Below, in pieces: positions 8,645-18,122 of a stretch of DNA of 54,668 nucleotides. Each line of letters begins with the position of its first letter. Positions within the stretch are counted from its first letter, which is position 1. The notes under the pieces are model-generated. The model saw only the letters and a list, made by a program, of their open reading frames with translations. It did no database searches and had not been told where the DNA came from. The DNA is from Spirochaetales bacterium (lineage in GTDB: Bacteria > Spirochaetota > Spirochaetia > JABEVK01), in the NCBI GenBank assembly GCA_947478845.1, contig CANJXC010000018.1, forward strand, positions 1 through 54,668, read 5' to 3'. The translations under genes were made by a program, and so were the position numbers.

Positions 8645-9379
8645 CTAGCTGTCGAAATAGGCGCTGACGCAGGCCAGAATGTAGGCGGCCAGGCGCGGGT
8701 CCACCTTGTCGTAGTTGGCCTTGAAGCGCTCGTCCTGGTTGTACATTTCGGCCAGACCACGGAGGCCTTCGGGTGTCGTCGGGTAGAAGAACTCAATCCC
8801 CTTCCGCCAGTCCTCCACCATCTTCCGGGCCGCCGGGGCCGCCGGGTCGGTGCCGATGAGCGCCGCCCATGCGTGGTTGAACGCCTCGCCGTCGGTCTTC
8901 ATCCTTTGCTTTTCGGCGGGGGTCAGCCGTGCGTAGCGACGGTTCGACTCCTTGACCACGGCAGGGTCCCATTTCTGCGCCGCTTCTTCGGCGTACGCCT
9001 TCTCTTGGTCCGACAGACCGTCGAACCATTCTTCCTGTTGCATTGTCGTTTCTCCTTTTTGTTGCGCGAGAGTCTTGTCCACGGTTGCCAGCAACCGCTT
9101 GAGGCGCTCAATCCGGCGAGCGAGCGCTTTGCGGTGCGACTCCAGCGCCGCCACCACGGTGAACCCCGGCCGGCCCATCAGGTTGCCGATGGTTTCGAGG
9201 TTCATGCCCAGTTCCCGGTAGAACAGAATCTGCTGCAGCAGAAGCAGGGCCTCCTCCCCGTAGTAGCGATAGCCGTTATCGCCGGTACGGGACGGCTTGA
9301 GGAGGCCGAGGGCATCGTAGTGGTGCAACGTGCGGACCGTGATACCGGCCAACGTTGCGACTTGCTTCACCGTGTACAT
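8645..9379 (-). CDS. MerR-family regulator with TipAS ligand domain
   Basis: The 244-residue protein begins MYTVKQVATLAGITVRTL, then HHYDALGLLKPSRTGDNGYRYY, the MerR winged-helix domain. A coiled coil (residues about 75-115) follows, then a TipAS antibiotic-recognition domain (EEWFDGLSDQEKAYAEEAAQ through the C-terminus). TipA/Mta-type proteins bind multiple hydrophobic drugs and activate their own promoter and efflux genes. The ATG at 9379 is chosen because the MerR homology starts there and because a MerR-type promoter lies directly upstream. No efflux gene is nearby except the broken EamA fragment, a plausible former target. Confidence 0.88.
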   Translation of the reverse strand: MYTVKQVATLAGITVRTLHHYDALGLLKPSRTGDNGYRYYGEEALLLLQQILFYRELGMNLETIGNLMGRPGFTVVAALESHRKALARRIERLKRLLATVDKTLAQQKGETTMQQEEWFDGLSDQEKAYAEEAAQKWDPAVVKESNRRYARLTPAEKQRMKTDGEAFNHAWAALIGTDPAAPAARKMVEDWRKGIEFFYPTTPEGLRGLAEMYNQDERFKANYDKVDPRLAAYILACVSAYFDS

Positions 9380-9386
9380 ACTCCCC

Positions 9387-9417
9387 AAGATAAACCCTGA
9401 CGTTACGTTAGGCTCAA
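9387..9417 (-). promoter_or_regulatory. MerR-type promoter with 19-bp spacer and embedded operator
   Basis: On the minus strand, -35 TTGAGC (9417-9412) and -10 TATCTT (9392-9387) are separated by 19 bp. The spacer holds CCTGACGT-T-ACGTTAGG (9396-9412), a near-perfect palindrome. The over-long spacer with a centred dyad is the hallmark of promoters remodelled by MerR activators. The start codon is seven bases after the -10 box, so the transcript is predicted to be leaderless. Confidence 0.8.
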
Positions 9418-9702
9418 GCGATATCGGAAAGATTCTGAAGGTCTTCGCGGCGAATCTTGACTTCCTGTTCACCAAAGCTTTTTACCGTCCTCAGTTGATC
9501 AAAGTCCATTGGAGATACCCCCTAACTTGCCAGTGTCGACTGACGTTGGTTGATTTTCAATTGTCAAATCGCGGGGAAGGAACTGAGCTAGTGACTTACA
9601 TGACTCGATTGGACAGGGGAGGAGGGCGAGGAGGCACAACACCGAGGTTGATCATTTAGGCAGGAGATTCTTCTGCAAGTTGGCCTTCTTTTCCAACTTT
9701 TC

Positions 9703-9730: not shown

Positions 9731-9766
9731 CAAAAAAATAACCCCATACCGGGTATGGGGTTATTC
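9731..9766 (-). terminator. Intrinsic terminator after tRNA-fMet, supplied by the element
   Basis: On the minus strand AATAACCCCATAC and GTATGGGGTTATT form a long stem followed by seven T. It stands six bases past the tRNA 3' end and replaces the original terminator, which was pushed to 1603-1637 by the integration. Confidence 0.85.
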
Positions 9767-9771
9767 AACTA

Positions 9772-9788
9772 TAGCAGGGACAGGACTC
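9772..9788. repeat. attR core within tRNA-fMet
   Basis: TAGCAGGGACAGGACTC, identical to 1641-1657. It restores the 3' end of the tRNA gene. Confidence 0.8.
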
Positions 9789-9844
9789 GAACCTGTGACC
9801 TTCGGGTTATGAGCCCGACGAGCTGCCAACTGCTCCACCCTGCG
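9772..9844 (-). tRNA. Initiator tRNA-fMet (CAU)
   Basis: The 73-base sequence folds as a cloverleaf. Initiator features are a mismatch at the end of the acceptor stem (C1 against U72) and three G-C pairs in the anticodon stem (GTCGGGCTCATAACCCGA). The T arm reads GGTTCGAGTCC. CCA is not encoded. Its 3' 17 bases are the attachment core of the element at 1641-9788. It begins 16 bases after the stop of the HisC-like gene and may be cotranscribed with that operon. Confidence 0.93.
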
Positions 9845-9860: not shown

Positions 9861-10946
9861 CTACCTAACGGTGGGGATAGTGTCAAGGGCATGGCAGAGG
9901 GCTTTCCAGCAGAGTTGGTTCTGTTCTGGGGTGCCAGTGGTGATACGGATGGCGTTGGGGAGGCCGAAGCTTGTAAGGGGCCGAATTGTCACGCCGCCTT
10001 CGATCATCGCCGCTGCCACCGCCTGGGCGTCGCGACCCACTTCGAGGCAAAAGAAGTTCGCTTGCGTTGGATACGGGGACAGACCTCGGGTCGCTAACTT
10101 CTGGTTCCAAAACTCCAACCCTTCGCGGTTGAGAGCGAGGCTTTCGTTGACAAATTTCAGGTCGTGCAATGCCGCAATGCCGGCTTTCTGGGTCATGTTG
10201 CCCACGTTGAAGGGCTGCTTTACCACCGAAACATCGCGAATCACCGCCTCGCTGGCAGCAATAAAGCCTAGGCGCAGGCTGGCCAAGCCGTAAATCTTAC
10301 TAAATGTGCGGCTTACAACCAAATTGGGCCACCGCTCGAGCAGGGAAAACGACTGGGGGAAATCGGGCATCTGAGCATAGTGGCCGTAGGCTTCGTCGAG
10401 CACTACCAGCACCGTCGGCGGTACCCGACCCAAGAACTCTTCCAGCTGTCGCTGGTTGAAGGCCGTACCTGTGGGGTTATTAGGGTTACAGAGGAAGATA
10501 ATTCGCGTTTTGGGCTCAATAGCAGCGGCGATTGCGTCCAGGTCGTAGAAGCCCTGGGAGAGGGGCACTTTGTCCATAACCCCACCAAACAACCTGACTG
10601 CAAAGGTATACTCCGAAAAGGTTTCCTGAGCGGTCAGCCCGTGGTCGCCGGGGCGGATAAAGGCTCCTGCCAACAAGGTGAATACCTCGTCGCTGCCGTT
10701 ACCCACGAGGAAATTGCCCGGTTTGAGTTTATACAGCTCAGCGAGAGTTTTCCGCAATTCGGTCGCAGCGCCGTCAGGGTACAGGTGAAGCTCGCTCGCG
10801 GCTTGGGCTAGGGCCTCGAGCGCTTTGGGAGACGGCCCCCTAGGGTTCTCGTTTGAGCTGAGCTTCACCAGGCCGGGGATGAGTTTTCCCGCCACGTAGG
10901 GCTTTAAGTCTCGCAGGTCTTCCCTCAGGGTCAAAAGTGCACCCAT
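9861..10946 (-). CDS. Histidinol-phosphate aminotransferase-like PLP enzyme
   Basis: The 361-residue fold-type I aminotransferase has the HisC pattern: LSSNENPRGPSP, GNGSDEVFTLL, CNPNNPTG, LDEAYGHYAQ, and FSKIYGLASLRLGF with Lys217 as the PLP Schiff base. HisC enzymes convert imidazole-acetol phosphate and glutamate to histidinol phosphate; close relatives act on aromatic amino acids. No other his gene is present. It is the last gene of the PKS/carotenoid operon, overlapping the cyclase by 16 bases. It may therefore be a housekeeping gene at the operon end or supply or consume an aromatic precursor. The ribosome site is weak. Confidence 0.85.
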   Translation of the reverse strand: MGALLTLREDLRDLKPYVAGKLIPGLVKLSSNENPRGPSPKALEALAQAASELHLYPDGAATELRKTLAELYKLKPGNFLVGNGSDEVFTLLAGAFIRPGDHGLTAQETFSEYTFAVRLFGGVMDKVPLSQGFYDLDAIAAAIEPKTRIIFLCNPNNPTGTAFNQRQLEEFLGRVPPTVLVVLDEAYGHYAQMPDFPQSFSLLERWPNLVVSRTFSKIYGLASLRLGFIAASEAVIRDVSVVKQPFNVGNMTQKAGIAALHDLKFVNESLALNREGLEFWNQKLATRGLSPYPTQANFFCLEVGRDAQAVAAAMIEGGVTIRPLTSFGLPNAIRITTGTPEQNQLCWKALCHALDTIPTVR

Positions 10947-11614
10947 TTTTCAAAAAAGAGGTAGAACGCGAGGGTGAGGCCCAGGTAGCTCAGGTTGTAG
11001 AAGAAATCTTCCAGGGGGATGCTTCCGATGCGCAGTCCCCAGATGGCTTTAGGATTGTAAAAAATGGTGGGTAGCGAAGTGTACAACCCGTCCACCACGA
11101 CAAATAGCGTGAAGCTGATCGCCGTCCAGATCCAGAACGCGCTGGTGCCCACGAGCGTTGGAGCCCCGATGGCGAGGGTGGAGAGAAACACCGCTACCGA
11201 GGCCATGGCGATGAAGGTGTACCCGAGGTTGCGAAACAGCCAAGCGGCGCCCACGAAGGCCAAGGCCCCGCAATACAGCGTGACAGGGTTCACCTCGAAC
11301 CAAACGGCATTGCCAAAGTACCCAACAACGCACTCGTACACGAACAGGCAGGCGTAGGGAATGGCGATAAAGAACAGAATCTCGCCCATCGGAAGGCCGA
11401 AAATACGGAAATCACCGGTGTAAACGGGGTTGAACTGCCAGTCTCCACGCGCCGTGACGAAGGCGTCCCAGAGCAGGTAAAGCAATCCCACCGTGAGGAT
11501 CGCAAGCCCCACGGCAGGAGCGTGCGTCCAGAAATGAACCTTTTCGTCAAAACTAAGCGCCAGCGGGCCGGCTACCGACACCAAGGCTATCAGAGAGTAC
11601 AGTTGTTTCTTCAT
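10931..11614 (-). CDS. Lycopene cyclase, CrtYc/CrtYd-fusion type
   Basis: The 227-residue integral membrane protein has about six or seven hydrophobic segments and two related halves. Each half carries the lycopene-cyclase-domain signature: LLWDAFVTARGDWQF with TGDFRIFGLPMGEILFF in the first, and IWGLRIGSIPLEDFFYNL in the second. Heterodimer-type cyclases of Gram-positive bacteria have these domains as separate CrtYc and CrtYd; fused forms occur in archaea, Bacteroidota and fungi. It closes the ends of lycopene or a related carotene to beta-rings. Its start overlaps the crtB stop (ATGA). No ketolase or hydroxylase gene is adjacent. Confidence 0.88.
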   Translation of the reverse strand: MKKQLYSLIALVSVAGPLALSFDEKVHFWTHAPAVGLAILTVGLLYLLWDAFVTARGDWQFNPVYTGDFRIFGLPMGEILFFIAIPYACLFVYECVVGYFGNAVWFEVNPVTLYCGALAFVGAAWLFRNLGYTFIAMASVAVFLSTLAIGAPTLVGTSAFWIWTAISFTLFVVVDGLYTSLPTIFYNPKAIWGLRIGSIPLEDFFYNLSYLGLTLAFYLFFEKWVHF

Positions 11615-12474
11615 GGTCTCCCCTGGTTGGGCAACGGAGGTGGGATGTATAACAAATTGCCCACAAACGTCAGAAAGATTCGTACTTTGCTAGGCTTGAT
11701 CTTGCGGCGCCACACTTCCATAGGGTCACGCATGATGACTTCGGCCGTCCAGTTGTAGAGGTCGCTGGCGGTTTTCACAGCTAGTCGGAACCTCCAAGGT
11801 AAGTAGCCATAGCCGAGCTGAGCACCGTGTTGCCATTGGGAGTACAATGAGGTCTGTCCCCGCATAAAGGTACAGAACTCCGCCTCGTGTTCTTTGGCCA
11901 GTTGCGGCGTCAACCCTGGAAGGCCAGTGTTGGCTAGAGGTAGGTAGCGACGACCCAAGCGGAAGTCCTCGTCGACGTCCCGCAAGAAATTGATAAACTG
12001 CATACTGCGCCCCATCAGGCCGGCGGTTTCGCGGGCCGCTTCGGGGAGGCCAAGAATGCGTATCATGAACAGGCCGATCACCTCGGCCGAACCCCAAGTG
12101 TACTTCAGAACGTCTTCCACAGTGTTGCAGGGTTTGTGGTCAAGGTCAGACTCCATCGCGGTGAGGAAATCTTCTGTCCATTGGGGGTCGAAGCCGACCC
12201 GTTTCCCCAACTCCACGAAGGGATCAATCACCATGTCGCCGGCCGGAGTTCCTGCCAGAGCATTACGCCAACGCTGCCGGAAGGCACGAAACTCCTCGGG
12301 TTCGGGAGGCACATCGTCCACCAGATTATCAGACACCCGAACAAACGCATACAAGGTAAAGACATCCTTGCGTACTGCCTTGGGAAAAATGCGGCTGGAG
12401 TTGTAGTAAGTCTTACTGCCTTTGAGGAAGATTTGCTGATGCAGGGTACCGGTGTCTTGCTTGGGCTCAGTCAC
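11611..12474 (-). CDS. crtB: Phytoene synthase
   Basis: This 287-residue squalene/phytoene synthase family enzyme condenses two geranylgeranyl diphosphates to phytoene. Both Mg2+-diphosphate motifs are present: SDNLVDD (residues 48-54) and NFLRDVDED (162-170), followed by RRYLP. GTG at 12474 is the start and overlaps the crtI stop (GTGA), so it is translationally coupled. The length is normal. A hydroxysqualene or diapophytoene synthase cannot be excluded from motifs alone, but the neighbouring desaturase and cyclase favour a carotenoid role. Confidence 0.92.
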   Translation of the reverse strand: MTEPKQDTGTLHQQIFLKGSKTYYNSSRIFPKAVRKDVFTLYAFVRVSDNLVDDVPPEPEEFRAFRQRWRNALAGTPAGDMVIDPFVELGKRVGFDPQWTEDFLTAMESDLDHKPCNTVEDVLKYTWGSAEVIGLFMIRILGLPEAARETAGLMGRSMQFINFLRDVDEDFRLGRRYLPLANTGLPGLTPQLAKEHEAEFCTFMRGQTSLYSQWQHGAQLGYGYLPWRFRLAVKTASDLYNWTAEVIMRDPMEVWRRKIKPSKVRIFLTFVGNLLYIPPPLPNQGRP

Positions 12475-13943
12475 TGACGGGTTTCCTTCAACTTGGTAGC
12501 CAAGACGTCGCTGGCAATCAGCGTCATCGGTACCCCGACCCCGGGATGGGTGTATTGGCCAGTGTAATACAGGTTTTTCACCTTTTTGCTTTGCAGGCGA
12601 GGACGGAAAATCGCCGTTTGGAAGAGTGTGTGGCTCAGCCCCAGCGCGGTTCCCTTAAAGGCGTGATAGTCCCGGGAGAAGTCCTGCTGACTGAACACCC
12701 GGCACACGTCGATCTCGTCGCGGAAGCTTTGGCCCGTGGTCTTTTCGACGTGGGAAATGAGCGCGCTTAAGTACTTTTGACGGAACTCTTCGGGGTCGGA
12801 CAAACCCGGGGCTGCGGGCACCAGCAGGAAAAGATTTTCGCACCCTTCGGGGGCCATCGAGGCATCGGTTCGGGTGATGGCGCTTAGGTAGAAGCAAGGG
12901 TTTTCGGGCCAAGAGGGAGTTTTAAAAATCGTGTCGAAATGCTTGTTCCAATCGACGCTGAAGTAGAGGTTGTGGTGTTCCAGCCCCGGCAGGCGCTTTT
13001 TGACCCCGAGGTAGACGATGAACATGGAAGGCGCCACGACGCGCTGGTTCCAATAAGGCTGACGATAGGTCTGCCAGCGACGCTCCAACAACTGGGTTTC
13101 ACCGTGGACGTAATCGCCTGTGTTGACCACCACATCGGCCTCAAAGGTGCCCTTTTCGGTAACCACTTGTGTCACTTGGCCGTTCTCGACCTGCAGGCGC
13201 TTCACATCGTGGTTGAAATGAAGAACTCCTCCCCGCTGTTTCACCAGTTCCGCCATGGCGACGGCAACGCCATTCATTCCTCCCTTGGGGAACCAAACCC
13301 CGAGCTTGAGGTCGACGTGACTCATGAGGGAGTACATCGACGGGGCTTCATTGGGGCTGGTGCCCAGGAACACCATGGCGTACTCAAGGATCTGCTTGGC
13401 CCTTCGATCGGTAAAGTATTTGCTGACAAACTTATCGAGCGACTGGAAGATGCCCATCTGAAGGCCTTCTGTGAGCACCCGAGCGTTAAAAAAGTCAAAG
13501 ACCGACTTGTATTCCTTGTAGAGGAAAGACCCCACGGCAATGTCGTATTTCAGCTCGGCGCCCTTCATGTACGCATCCAAGCGCTTGCCGCCATTGGGCT
13601 CGAAGGAGTCGAACAGTTTTTTGGTGGCTTCCAAGTCTTCGGTGATGGTCACCGCGTTTTCGCCCTCAAAGTACACCTTGTAGTGGGTGGAAAGCTTGGT
13701 GAGTTTGAGAACCTCGGCGCAAGGGACGCCGATGCTCGCAAAAAAGCGGTCAAACACCTCCGGCATGAGGTACCAGGAAGGACCCATGTCGAAGTGGTAG
13801 CCTTTTTCTGACCACAGCCGAGCCCTTCCGCCTGGGCCCTCGTTGTTGTCGAGAACGGTGACATCCCAGCCGTCGCGAAGCATCAACAGGGCACTCGACA
13901 ACCCGGCAAAACCCGCTCCGATGATGAGTGCTTTTCTTTTCAT
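12471..13943 (-). CDS. crtI: CrtI-type phytoene desaturase
   Basis: The 490-residue flavoprotein starts with the FAD-binding motif IGAGFAGLSSALLMLRDG and the CrtI continuation VLDNNEGPGGRA. It ends with the family signature YYTGQYTHPGVGVPMTLIAS. It should introduce the conjugated double bonds converting phytoene to lycopene or neurosporene. The number of desaturation steps cannot be read off. A promoter with TATCTT six bases from the ATG suggests crtI can also be transcribed separately as a leaderless message. It overlaps crtB by four bases. Confidence 0.93.
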   Translation of the reverse strand: MKRKALIIGAGFAGLSSALLMLRDGWDVTVLDNNEGPGGRARLWSEKGYHFDMGPSWYLMPEVFDRFFASIGVPCAEVLKLTKLSTHYKVYFEGENAVTITEDLEATKKLFDSFEPNGGKRLDAYMKGAELKYDIAVGSFLYKEYKSVFDFFNARVLTEGLQMGIFQSLDKFVSKYFTDRRAKQILEYAMVFLGTSPNEAPSMYSLMSHVDLKLGVWFPKGGMNGVAVAMAELVKQRGGVLHFNHDVKRLQVENGQVTQVVTEKGTFEADVVVNTGDYVHGETQLLERRWQTYRQPYWNQRVVAPSMFIVYLGVKKRLPGLEHHNLYFSVDWNKHFDTIFKTPSWPENPCFYLSAITRTDASMAPEGCENLFLLVPAAPGLSDPEEFRQKYLSALISHVEKTTGQSFRDEIDVCRVFSQQDFSRDYHAFKGTALGLSHTLFQTAIFRPRLQSKKVKNLYYTGQYTHPGVGVPMTLIASDVLATKLKETRQ

Positions 13944-13949
13944 GTGGGT

Positions 13950-13979
13950 AAGATACTCAGGATGCCAGCGTCAGGGCAA
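13950..13979 (-). promoter_or_regulatory. Candidate internal promoter of crtI
   Basis: Minus-strand -35 TTGCCC (13979-13974), 18-bp spacer, -10 TATCTT (13955-13950). ATG follows after six bases, predicting a leaderless crtI transcript. Confidence 0.5.
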
Positions 13980-14699
13980 CATGGGCCCGGTAGCTACCCA
14001 TACCCGGGACGGGTGGGCGGTACCAAACACAAGTCGGTCGGAAAGCGGTCCCAGAATCTCCTGAAATTCCCTCAGCGTGAAGCCGCGTCGAATCGACAGC
14101 CTACCGTCGTGAAAAGCAAACGATCGGTGCAACAATAGTCCAGTGAAGATGGTATAGCCGAGGTAGCCCCATGGAGAGCGGGCCAAATCGTTGAGCAGTA
14201 TTCCTACCCGGGCACGCTTGAGAGCCTCAAAGACGGCTGCGATCACGTTGTCCCAATCAAAATGATGCAGCGTGTGGTTCGACATCACAAAGTCCCAAGT
14301 TTCACCTTCGTCTATCTCAAAAACTGACCCGTGAACCGGTGTGATCTCTGGGTAGTTGCGGCACAACTGCCGGGCCCAGGGAAGAACACGTGGGTCGACA
14401 TCGAGAGCGGTGATCCGGAGTTTGAGTCCTTTGCGCCGGGAGAGCCGAATCAGAGCCCGGTCAATATCGCCACCACCACTGCCAAAGTCGAGTAGGGTCC
14501 AAACTCGGGCCTTGTCTTTGAGCATCTGCGGCAAAAGGTGACGCCGGAACAGCCGCACCCCGGCCGAAAACAAGCGGTTGATCAGGTCAAATTGCTTTAT
14601 GGTGCGGTAGAGCTTCTTCGGGTCCGCATTTACGCTGTCCATCAGCTCTTTTTCGTAGTGGCGCTCCGATAAATCAGGGAAGAAAAGTGGCGCCTTCAA
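13971..14699 (-). CDS. Class I SAM-dependent methyltransferase linked to the PKS
   Basis: The 242-residue protein (start TTG at 14699 overlapping the PKS stop as TTGA) has SAM motif I LLDFGSGGGDIDRAL, an acidic motif II ITALDVDPRV and the post-I segment SNHTLHHFDW. The C-terminal third has hydrophobic stretches. Class I methyltransferases beside bacterial type III PKS and FAD hydroxylase genes probably methylate the phenolic polyketide, as SrsB (of a different fold) does in Streptomyces alkylresorcinol synthesis. A longer frame to 14750 lies inside the PKS coding region, and its extra residues have no family resemblance, so the TTG start is preferred. Confidence 0.82.
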   Translation of the reverse strand: MKAPLFFPDLSERHYEKELMDSVNADPKKLYRTIKQFDLINRLFSAGVRLFRRHLLPQMLKDKARVWTLLDFGSGGGDIDRALIRLSRRKGLKLRITALDVDPRVLPWARQLCRNYPEITPVHGSVFEIDEGETWDFVMSNHTLHHFDWDNVIAAVFEALKRARVGILLNDLARSPWGYLGYTIFTGLLLHRSFAFHDGRLSIRRGFTLREFQEILGPLSDRLVFGTAHPSRVWVATGPMLP

Positions 14700-15784
14700 A
14701 GCACTTCCAAAAAGGCCGACTCGACGGTGAGTCCCGGGCCAAAGGCGCAACTGAACAGCTTGCCTTTCTTGCCGCGGTCAAGAAGTTCTCGGAGAACGAA
14801 GAACACCGTTACAGAACTCATGTTTCCATAACGCCGCAAGATATCGTAGCTAACGTCAAGTTCTCCATGGGTCAAGGCCAGCACGTTGGCCATCTTGTCG
14901 AGAATGGCGCGGCCTCCCGGGTGTACTGCAAACAATTCAAGTTCTGACCGGCTCCAGCCAGAGTCGACAAAAAGCCGGTCGAGCACAGCCTGAATGTTGC
15001 CCTCGATGAGCCGGGGGACGTAACTTGAAAGTTTCATGTCGAACCCAGTTTCGCCGATGATCCACGCCATGTCGTTTTCGCTTCCCGGAATGATGTGGCT
15101 GCGAAACTCGTGGAGTTCCAAAAGACCCGGCTTGGCAGACAACAACGCCGCCGAGGCACCGTCGGCGAAAAGCGCATTAGCCACCACCACATCGGGTTCA
15201 AACGCTTTTTGAAAATGCAAGGTGCAAAGCTCCACGTCGACGACCAGCACCTGGGCCTCAGGTGTAGACCTCACAAGACTTTGAGCGAGTTTGAGTGCGG
15301 GGAAGGCTGCAAAACAACCCATGAAGCCTATGTGGAACCGGTGGATTCCCGGATTGAGCCCAAACTCGCGGAACAAATGGTAATCAAAACCGGGCGCCGA
15401 AAAGCCAGTGCAGCTCACAGTGATGAGGTGGGTGACACTCTTGGCTGAAAACTCAGGGTTCTGCTCAAAAAGTTTATGAACTGCTTGAAAAGCAAGTTTT
15501 TCAGCTTCAATAACAAACAAGGCGTTGCGTCTGGCGGTGCTGGGCTCGGGCTCGCTGCCTTCGGAGGGAGGGAAGAACTTACGTTCTCCAGCAGGCAAGC
15601 CGTAATCAGGAATCACCGAGTGGCGGGTTTCGATGGCCGAACCCTCGTAAATCTTCTGGATAAAGTTTCGTTTTTTGGGGGTGTCTCCAAGAGTTTCCAG
15701 CATGAAATCGCGGATGGCGCTCTGCGCAATGGCCGTTTCCGGTACGGCGGTGACCAGAGCATTGAGGTACACATTTGGATTCAC
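14696..15784 (-). CDS. Type III polyketide synthase (chalcone/stilbene synthase family)
   Basis: The 362-residue homodimeric ketosynthase has an intact catalytic triad: Cys125 in ITVSCTGFSAPG, His288 in LFAVHPGGRAILD, and Asn321 in RRYGNMSSVTVFFVL. HIGFMGCFAAFPALKLA is the usual second motif. Such enzymes extend an acyl-CoA with malonyl-CoA and cyclise the product to alkylresorcinols, alkylpyrones or related phenolics. Gene order with an FAD hydroxylase and a methyltransferase parallels the srs alkylquinone genes of Streptomyces. It overlaps both neighbours by four bases. The product is not determinable from sequence; long-chain alkylresorcinol-type lipids are the most likely. Confidence 0.92.
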   Translation of the reverse strand: MNPNVYLNALVTAVPETAIAQSAIRDFMLETLGDTPKKRNFIQKIYEGSAIETRHSVIPDYGLPAGERKFFPPSEGSEPEPSTARRNALFVIEAEKLAFQAVHKLFEQNPEFSAKSVTHLITVSCTGFSAPGFDYHLFREFGLNPGIHRFHIGFMGCFAAFPALKLAQSLVRSTPEAQVLVVDVELCTLHFQKAFEPDVVVANALFADGASAALLSAKPGLLELHEFRSHIIPGSENDMAWIIGETGFDMKLSSYVPRLIEGNIQAVLDRLFVDSGWSRSELELFAVHPGGRAILDKMANVLALTHGELDVSYDILRRYGNMSSVTVFFVLRELLDRGKKGKLFSCAFGPGLTVESAFLEVL

Positions 15785-16971
15785 TGGATATCCTTGAAGG
15801 AGGCTAATTCAGGGTAGCGGGCCTTGGCCTGAGCGAGGTTGCGGAACGGTATGGTCAGCATCGCGTAGTGAGCGGGAATGACGTTCCGCAACACCTGCAA
15901 AAGCCACCCGAGAAGAGCGTTACGCGGACTGGAAGCCCATCCGCGTACGGTTCCCACCGCCATCGAGAGTTCCGAGCGGGCCGCAGCCGTTTTTCCCGCC
16001 TTGCGCCGAACGCGACTGTACAGGGTATTCCAACGTTCGGCCAGTTTGCTCTTGGGTTTTTCCAGGCGAGCCTCAAGGAGAGCCGCAAGAAACTCCGCAT
16101 CGGCAAAACCCGTGTTCATACCTTGGCCACCAATAGGCGACATCTGGTGGGCGCTGTCGCCGGCGAGGTATACCCTGCCCCAGGCATAATGTTCGCTGAT
16201 CCACCGGTGAATGCCGAACGGGCTTTGCCAAGTCCGGGTTACAGGATCCAAGGCGATACCGGTACGTTCCTGCACCTGGTCTTCCAAATAAGACCCCGGC
16301 TGGTCCAGGTAAGTGGAAGTCTGCACGATCCAACGTCGTTTGCCTTGGCCCAGCGGAAACGATTCGACGGCGCCCAAAGACGTGAAAAACAGGTGGGCCT
16401 CGTCGCCCCAGCCGGTCTCGTCGAAATAGTCACCCATGAGGAAGGTCGAATCAAAACGCCTCGGCTTCCAGGCGACATCAATCGAGTCGCGGACTTTGCT
16501 GTGCACACCGTCGCAGCCAACGAGAAACAACGCGCGCTCGGCCCGCGGGTTTCCCGAGGCGTCCTGAAACAGGGCCATAAGAAACTCTGGGTCTTGATCG
16601 AAAGACTGGAATTGCCACCCATATTCGAGGGTGACGTTGGAGAGTTCACGAACCCTCTGTTCTAGGACCATCTCTGTGACACCCTGAGGAACCGACAGGA
16701 TGGGCTCGGGAAAGTTCACTTCTCCCAAAATAGTGCGTTCTTGACCATGAACATGCACCCGTTTGATCGAGGCGCCGAATTGTAGAAGTTCGGTAGCCAC
16801 ACCGAGTTTGCCCAGTAAAGCCAGACTCGGTGGCGTAACCCCGATGGCGTTGCTGGCAGAATCACGAGCAGGTTTCTTCTCGAGCACAAGCACACTGCGA
16901 CCCTGCTTACCCAGCAGGCAGGCCAATACCAAACCCACGGGTCCGGCCCCGACAATCAGGACGTCTGTCAT
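15781..16971 (-). CDS. FAD-dependent aromatic hydroxylase (UbiH/PHBH type)
   Basis: The 396-residue flavoprotein monooxygenase begins MTDVLIVGAGPVGLVLACLL, the GxGxxG dinucleotide fold, has CDGVHSKVR in the middle, and AGDSAHQMSPIGGQGMNTG as the second FAD motif. Group A monooxygenases use NAD(P)H and O2 to hydroxylate phenolic rings. As first gene of the operon followed by a type III PKS and a methyltransferase, it likely oxidises the polyketide ring, possibly to a quinone as SrsC does. Oxygen use implies an aerobic or microaerobic lifestyle. A promoter lies directly upstream with no room for a leader. Confidence 0.87.
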   Translation of the reverse strand: MTDVLIVGAGPVGLVLACLLGKQGRSVLVLEKKPARDSASNAIGVTPPSLALLGKLGVATELLQFGASIKRVHVHGQERTILGEVNFPEPILSVPQGVTEMVLEQRVRELSNVTLEYGWQFQSFDQDPEFLMALFQDASGNPRAERALFLVGCDGVHSKVRDSIDVAWKPRRFDSTFLMGDYFDETGWGDEAHLFFTSLGAVESFPLGQGKRRWIVQTSTYLDQPGSYLEDQVQERTGIALDPVTRTWQSPFGIHRWISEHYAWGRVYLAGDSAHQMSPIGGQGMNTGFADAEFLAALLEARLEKPKSKLAERWNTLYSRVRRKAGKTAAARSELSMAVGTVRGWASSPRNALLGWLLQVLRNVIPAHYAMLTIPFRNLAQAKARYPELASFKDIQ

Positions 16972-17006: not shown

Positions 17007-17102
17007 GCGTTCCGAGGAAGTTCCGGTTTCAGCGCCCAAGAGGCCTCACCCTCTTACCGGGATTGACAAGTGCCTTGGTTCGCCCGCAAGCTCACAGCAC
17101 CT

Positions 17103-18122
17103 ATGAAGCCGCTTATTCTTTCGTCACCCGAGCCGCGTAGCCTCGAGATCATCTTCACCGATTCGGCCCGGGAGCGGCTGTTTGAGAAGTACCGACTGGT
17201 TGAGGTGGGCCAAAACGAAGTGGCTGCCCTCCCCGATTCTGTGCTGGCTGAAGTTCGTTATGTGCTGGGTCAGCCACCGATTCCGGCAGAACTCTTAGCG
17301 CGGATGGGGAGCTTAAGGGCAGTGTTGAACGTCGAAAGCAACCTTCTGCCCAACATGCCCTACGACCTGTTGTTTCAGCGCGGGATTTATACCCTGACCA
17401 CAGGCGCAGTGTTCGCGGAACCTGTGGCCGAAATTGGCCTTGCCTTCGCGCTGAGCTTGTTGCGCGATGTGGTGGAAGGCGATCAGGCTTTTCAAGCGGG
17501 GCGTGAGCTGTGGGGTTTTGAGGGCAACCAGCGTGCCCGCCTGTTAACCGGGGCTAAGGTCGGGCTGATCGGTTTTGGCGACTTGGGGCGGGCCGTCAAC
17601 CGCGTGCTGGAAGGGTTTCGGGTGCAGGTCAGCGCTTACGACCCTTGGTTGCCACCCTCTGTTTTGCGCGACCATCGGGTGACGCCTGCCGGTTTAGAAG
17701 AGGTTCTCACCGGTTCCGATGTGGTGTTTTGCGTGGCTTCTGTCACCGGAGAAAACGAGGGATTCCTGCAGGCGCGCCATTTTGCCATGATGCGGCAGGG
17801 AGCGGCCTTCATCCTGTTGTCGCGTGCAGGCGTGGTGGATTTTGATGCGCTGATCGCGGCGGTGGGCTCGGGTCATATTCTGGCCGCCTCGGACGTTTAT
17901 CCGCAGGAGCCTTTGCCCTTGGACCACCCGGTGCGGAAGCTCAAGGGCTTCCTGCGCTCTGCCCACCGTGCTGGAGCCCTCGATGTCGCCATGAAGCGGA
18001 TGGGCGACATGGTTCTCGAAGACATGGACCTCATGGACCGGGGCCTGACTCCCCTGCGCTGCAAACGTGCCGAGCGCGAGACTGCAGCTAAAATGCGCTC
18101 AAAACCGGTCGACAAAACCTGA
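17103..18122 (+). CDS. D-isomer-specific 2-hydroxyacid dehydrogenase
   Basis: The 339-residue protein carries the NAD-binding motif GLIGFGDLGRAVNRVL near residue 152 and the catalytic set of the family: Arg in SRAGVVDFDAL, Glu in DVYPQEPLPLDHP, His in RSAHRAGALD. Members reduce 2-keto acids or oxidise D-2-hydroxy acids; phosphoglycerate dehydrogenase-like and hydroxypyruvate reductase-like forms cannot be separated here. ATG 17103 begins MKPLILSSPEP and fits the family start. A GTG at 17070 would add 11 atypical residues. Neither has a clear ribosome site. It diverges from the PKS operon. A TipAS or other regulator link is not evident. Confidence 0.85.
   Translation: MKPLILSSPEPRSLEIIFTDSARERLFEKYRLVEVGQNEVAALPDSVLAEVRYVLGQPPIPAELLARMGSLRAVLNVESNLLPNMPYDLLFQRGIYTLTTGAVFAEPVAEIGLAFALSLLRDVVEGDQAFQAGRELWGFEGNQRARLLTGAKVGLIGFGDLGRAVNRVLEGFRVQVSAYDPWLPPSVLRDHRVTPAGLEEVLTGSDVVFCVASVTGENEGFLQARHFAMMRQGAAFILLSRAGVVDFDALIAAVGSGHILAASDVYPQEPLPLDHPVRKLKGFLRSAHRAGALDVAMKRMGDMVLEDMDLMDRGLTPLRCKRAERETAAKMRSKPVDKT

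Follow-up and report, generated by a model that had tools for sequence, protein, structure and literature searches.

A type III polyketide synthase module joined to carotenoid genes in a plausible single transcription unit of a spirochaete

The DNA analysed here is a contig stretch of 54,668 nucleotides from a Spirochaetales bacterium (hereafter the window). On its minus strand, seven genes run head to tail from 16971 down to 9861 in the order MOX-PKS-MT-crtI-crtB-crtYcd-hisC. The sequence, Pfam and NCBIfam matches all confirmed the original prediction that these seven genes share one direction at this position. The GC content of the unit (0.55-0.59) is similar to that of its flanks. A hairpin beyond the tRNA-Met that follows hisC is the probable end of the unit (Table 1).

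Table 1. Features of the seven-gene unit and its 3' end, with window coordinates.
Feature	Coordinates	Strand	Evidence
MOX, FAD monooxygenase, first gene of unit	15781..16971	-	PF01494 157 bits
PKS, type III polyketide synthase	14696..15784	-	PF00195 and PF02797
MT, class I SAM methyltransferase	13971..14699	-	PF13649, PF08241; PRK06202-like, under cut-off
Gap between MT and crtI, 27 nt	13944..13970	-	sequence
crtI, phytoene desaturase family	12471..13943	-	TIGR02734 467 bits (cut-off 238)
crtB, phytoene synthase (squalene/phytoene synthase family)	11611..12474	-	PF00494 152 bits
crtYcd, fused two-domain lycopene cyclase, CrtYc/CrtYd (CarR) type	10931..11614	-	PF18916, TIGR03462
hisC, histidinol-phosphate aminotransferase	9861..10946	-	TIGR01141 314.7 bits (cut-off 276.55)
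tRNA-Met, directly 3' of hisC	9772..9844	-	ARAGORN
Strong terminator-like hairpin, 14-bp stem and T tail	9736..9766	-	sequence

Strict coupling had been proposed for the whole unit. This was borne out within the modules, where 4-nt overlaps join MOX to PKS (GTGA), PKS to MT (TTGA, provided that MT uses as its start the TTG overlapping the stop codon of PKS), crtI to crtB (GTGA) and crtB to crtYcd (ATGA), with a further 16-nt overlap between crtYcd and hisC. It did not extend to the MT-crtI joint, whose 27-nt gap is the only joint without an overlap and coincides with the boundary of the two pathways. The tight overlaps fall inside the modules, and the weakest joint is where the PKS trio meets the carotenoid genes. 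No sigma-70-like promoter was detected within the seven-gene unit, and between the two modules neither a promoter-like site nor a convincing terminator was detected. Co-transcription of the seven genes is plausible from this arrangement. A tRNA-Gly called by ARAGORN inside crtI (window 13206-13303) was taken as a probable false positive. Past the tRNA-Met lies a MerR-type regulator with a TipAS antibiotic-recognition domain (window 8645-9475), which might respond to small molecules. A D-2-hydroxyacid dehydrogenase (window 17070-18122) is divergent from MOX; none of the close relatives read has it beside the trio.

MOX has the fold of the PHBH/UbiH/rifampin-monooxygenase group, and among PDB entries its profile is nearest to rifampin and polyketide monooxygenases. 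It is 65% identical to its counterpart in G005, a member of the same genus, and 53% identical to that of G003, a member of the same family. The PKS keeps the Cys157-His288-Asn321 triad, invariant in an alignment of 23 homologues, and its W241 is likewise invariant in 23 of 23. In PDB alignments W241 aligns with Gly256 of CHS and Leu266 of PKS18. W241 and M250 appear to occupy the positions of ArsB W281 and ArsC M293; the two residues lie nine apart, the same interval as ArsC Gly284-Met293 (PMC6274091), and the ArsB match rests on this spacing rather than on a direct alignment. Trp281 of ArsB favours resorcinol over pyrone formation (PMC6274091, PMC9927152). The equivalent Trp also occurs in PKS11, which the PDB names an alpha-pyrone synthase, so a resorcinol product is favoured for the window PKS but not proven. 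DpgA (3,5-dihydroxyphenylacetyl-CoA synthase) was rejected as the identity of the PKS, with an NF042429 score of 130.5 bits that falls far under the curated 425.

The PKS product could instead be an alkylpyrone, O-methylated by MT. Besides the Trp of PKS11, the presence of PKS18 among the nearest solved relatives and the methylation of polyketide pyrones by MMAR_2193 (PMC8730385) point this way. The hydroxylase partner and the invariant Trp fit resorcinol-to-quinone chemistry better, however, and we regard an alkylpyrone as an unlikely product.

The PKS-MT-MOX trio is one co-inherited module across several phyla. A scan of approximately 85,000 species genomes yielded 27 loci in Spirochaetota, Bacteroidota, Deinococcota, Actinomycetota and Pseudomonadota, with PKS, MT and MOX together in nearly all of them. 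Distance matrices of the three proteins correlated at r = 0.87-0.90 over 25 loci, and none of 2000 permutations reached as high a value. The order is PKS-MT-MOX in most non-spirochaetes, including annotated megaplasmids from Roseomonas and two Deinococcus species, whilst on a Psychrobacter plasmid the three genes are adjacent, MOX and MT being encoded on the opposite strand. At none of the 27 loci were crtI, crtB or crtYcd found near the trio.

Within Spirochaetota, a close PKS (E below 1e-80) was found in 8 of 393 sampled genomes and was adjoined by an MT in seven of the eight; G026 has a lone PKS without MT. Close MT homologues in the same sample all adjoin a PKS, the locus of G006 (described below) aside; the MT genes of L067, L111 and L112 were located by tblastn. 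In the stretches read around the PKS in these 393 genomes, only the window joined PKS to crt genes, and the PKS-crt neighbourhood was seen in no other genome examined. The original prediction had a phenolic lipid and a carotenoid made in fixed proportion, or a hybrid or shared membrane-protective system. Neither a fixed proportion nor a hybrid finds backing: in all the other genomes read the trio has no crt genes beside it, and the two loci lie apart in G003 and G005.

Other genes beside the trio were also noted. In five other spirochaete loci (L004, L006, L007, L008 and L027), a UbiE-like methyltransferase gene, encoded on the opposite strand, separates MOX from PKS, which suggests further methylation of the product. 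In G003 an EmrB-type efflux transporter directly follows the trio (L003 8835-9932), which suggests that the product is exported. Both neighbours would be in keeping with a lipid that is quinone-like or exported. A different type III PKS, approximately 29% identical and with other neighbours, is common in two Spirochaetota families (f25 and f49, L115-L128). These enzymes were rejected as members of the window PKS family, since the two tested were nearest to PKS11.

The assignment of crtI, crtB and crtYcd as carotenoid genes held in both Pfam and NCBIfam. CrtI passed TIGR02734 and scored 639.3 bits against NF058655 (CrtID, a bifunctional desaturase), 0.7 bit short of the curated cut-off of 640. 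CrtB matched the phytoene-synthase equivalogs of NCBIfam, all under cut-off, and CrtYcd matched PF18916 and TIGR03462 above cut-off (87.5 and 90.9 bits) in two stretches each. The crtI-crtB order is conserved in the family. In G001 and G002 the crt operon stands alone: a second, CrtI-like desaturase comes after crtI-crtB-crtYcd and, in G002, is directly followed by cruF (PF04240). The window matches this family-wide crtI-crtB-crtYcd-crtD-cruF operon, complete in G002, in its core genes and their order. Unlike that operon, its crt genes end at crtYcd, the PKS trio lies upstream, and the CrtD-like and CruF genes are elsewhere. The carotenoid module of the window is a shortened form of the family-wide operon.

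The carotenoid pathway of the host is scattered over the genome. Outside the window we found a second CrtID-type desaturase (C1:163920-165368), a CrtD-like desaturase (C3:273588-275048) and CruF (C4:170877-171347). The same gene set in Nonlabens gives a 1'-hydroxytorulene-type product (PMC11855829). By analogy, with CruF and the CrtD-like desaturase, a carotenoid of the 1'-hydroxytorulene type would be expected here.

The host genome (2.99 Mb in 22 contigs, approximately 99.75% complete) has Spirochaetota metagenome genomes as its nearest relatives by sequence. The hisC product is the only match to TIGR01141 above cut-off in this genome, and hence most likely serves histidine synthesis. The terminal aminotransferase had been put forward as a possible pathway member. 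As the only curated-quality HisC of the genome, it is most likely a housekeeping enzyme that belongs to neither pathway and was carried along. The genome also encodes COX1 and cytochrome bd, so the host can probably respire oxygen. Four UbiA-family proteins are present, of which at least two are most like menaquinone prenyltransferases (under cut-off) and one is a heme O synthase. With this set, cytochrome bd and COX1 all present, the trio product is unlikely to be the sole respiratory quinone.

Relatives of the host were then compared for the history of the junction. In G003, MOX-PKS-MT is followed by the exporter, and crtI lies elsewhere behind a gene whose translation looks RecQ-like. The trio is also missing upstream of crtI in G004. 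In G005, the gene after MOX-PKS is glyoxalase-like and lies on the other strand, and MT was found neither there nor elsewhere in the assembly; crtYcd, a CrtD-like gene and a hisC 61% identical to that of the window stand consecutively at the end of a contig. In both G003 and G005, PKS and crt loci are apart. A different picture was found in G006, a further member of the genus (approximately 80% complete), where MT lies about 50 nt before crtI (L067, contig C98, 2079-3035), a gap comparable to the 27 nt of the window. This MT is intact and keeps the conserved residues of its family. A divergent gene precedes it, with a translation that resembles SlyD, and PKS and MOX were found neither upstream of MT nor elsewhere in the approximately 80%-complete assembly. 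No MT was found in G001, G002 and G004, which have crtI.

The adjacency of MT and crtI in both the window and G006 indicates that this joint is older than the species. The original prediction had turned on whether the gene order is conserved beyond this strain. For the PKS-crt linkage it is not, as this was seen only in the window, but the MT-crtI joint is common to G006. In the simplest history, the trio was set before the crt operon in an ancestor of the genus, and MOX-PKS was later moved or lost in G005 and G006. These assemblies are 80-90% complete and other histories may apply.

Taken together, we consider it probable that two independent pathways share one transcription unit after a rearrangement at the level of the genus, giving a quinone-type module, a carotenoid module and a housekeeping HisC side by side. 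The PKS would make a probable long-chain alkylresorcinol, which MT would methylate and MOX would hydroxylate or oxidise, to give a methylated phenolic lipid or a benzoquinone of the polyketide-quinone/hierridin type. In the membrane, this product could act as an alternative electron carrier or a protective lipid. CrtI, CrtB and CrtYcd would make a carotenoid with one cyclised end, converted to the 1'-hydroxytorulene type by CruF and the CrtD-like enzyme, and HisC would serve histidine synthesis. The chemical products, the co-transcription and a shared expression context (oxygen or membrane stress) are what we infer. The G006 locus counts against this account: an MT that stays with crtI where no PKS or MOX was found is its one loose end, and may mean that MT has a role on the carotenoid side in this genus.

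It is also conceivable, though we think it improbable, that co-transcription was itself selected, with both membrane protectants needed together, for example on exposure to oxygen, and no chemistry shared between them. A single unit whose modules are separated by neither a promoter-like site nor a convincing terminator would suit such a regulon, as would an MT-crtI adjacency common to two species of the genus. So would the COX1 and cytochrome bd genes, and flavin monooxygenases of the MOX type use O2. Carotenoid production is oxygen-induced in some spirochaetes (PMC4511686). By contrast, PKS and crt genes are unlinked outside the window in every genome read, including G005, where both sets occur. 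A still less likely proposal, which we hold to be very doubtful, is that the carotenoid pathway of this genus has taken over or shares the MT, which would stay with crtI and give a methylated carotenoid or act on two substrates, or that MT (or MOX) also acts on the carotenoid or links both products: the intact G006 MT directly before crtI speaks for it, but every other close MT in the phylum sample adjoins a PKS, three relatives have crtI and no MT, and PKS may simply be missing from the incomplete G006 assembly.

The junction of trio and carotenoid genes offers a natural experiment in how operons merge. The G006 locus leaves room for an MT that serves both pathways, in which case phenolic-lipid and carotenoid chemistry would be connected in a way seldom seen. 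A module of the polyketide-quinone/alkylresorcinol type is also now placed in Spirochaetota, where a search of the literature turned up no account of such genes.

The first three genes of the unit had been said to parallel alkylresorcinol/alkylquinone genes, and this likeness was upheld by comparison with published operons. In Mycobacterium, Streptomyces, cyanobacteria and planctomycetes, PKS-methyltransferase-oxidoreductase operons are reported to produce alkylresorcinols, methylated alkylresorcinols or polyketide quinones (PMC8730385, PMC9927152, PMC8086630, PMC10896814). The window shares with clusters of the pkq and hid type the PKS triad and the adjoining methyltransferase and FAD oxidoreductase. 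A phenolic lipid or quinone of the membrane is the probable product of the trio. In gene content it resembles pkqABC of Mycobacterium smegmatis and Streptomyces sp. MNU77, likewise a type III PKS, a methyltransferase and an oxidoreductase, and a Trp at the ArsB-281 position, if W241 does correspond to it, would be a further likeness; the window differs in its order of MOX-PKS-MT and in the carotenoid genes that follow. The hierridin operon hidABC of cyanobacteria and the planctomycete mtr-fdo-T3PKS operon hold the same three activities, in the order MT-oxidoreductase-PKS rather than MOX-PKS-MT. In Streptomyces griseus, srsABC also combines a PKS, a methyltransferase and a hydroxylase, and makes alkylresorcinol-derived quinones. 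SrsB is described as an isoprenylcysteine-type methyltransferase (PMC6669644), whereas the window MT is a class I SAM enzyme with Methyltransf_25/11 domains.
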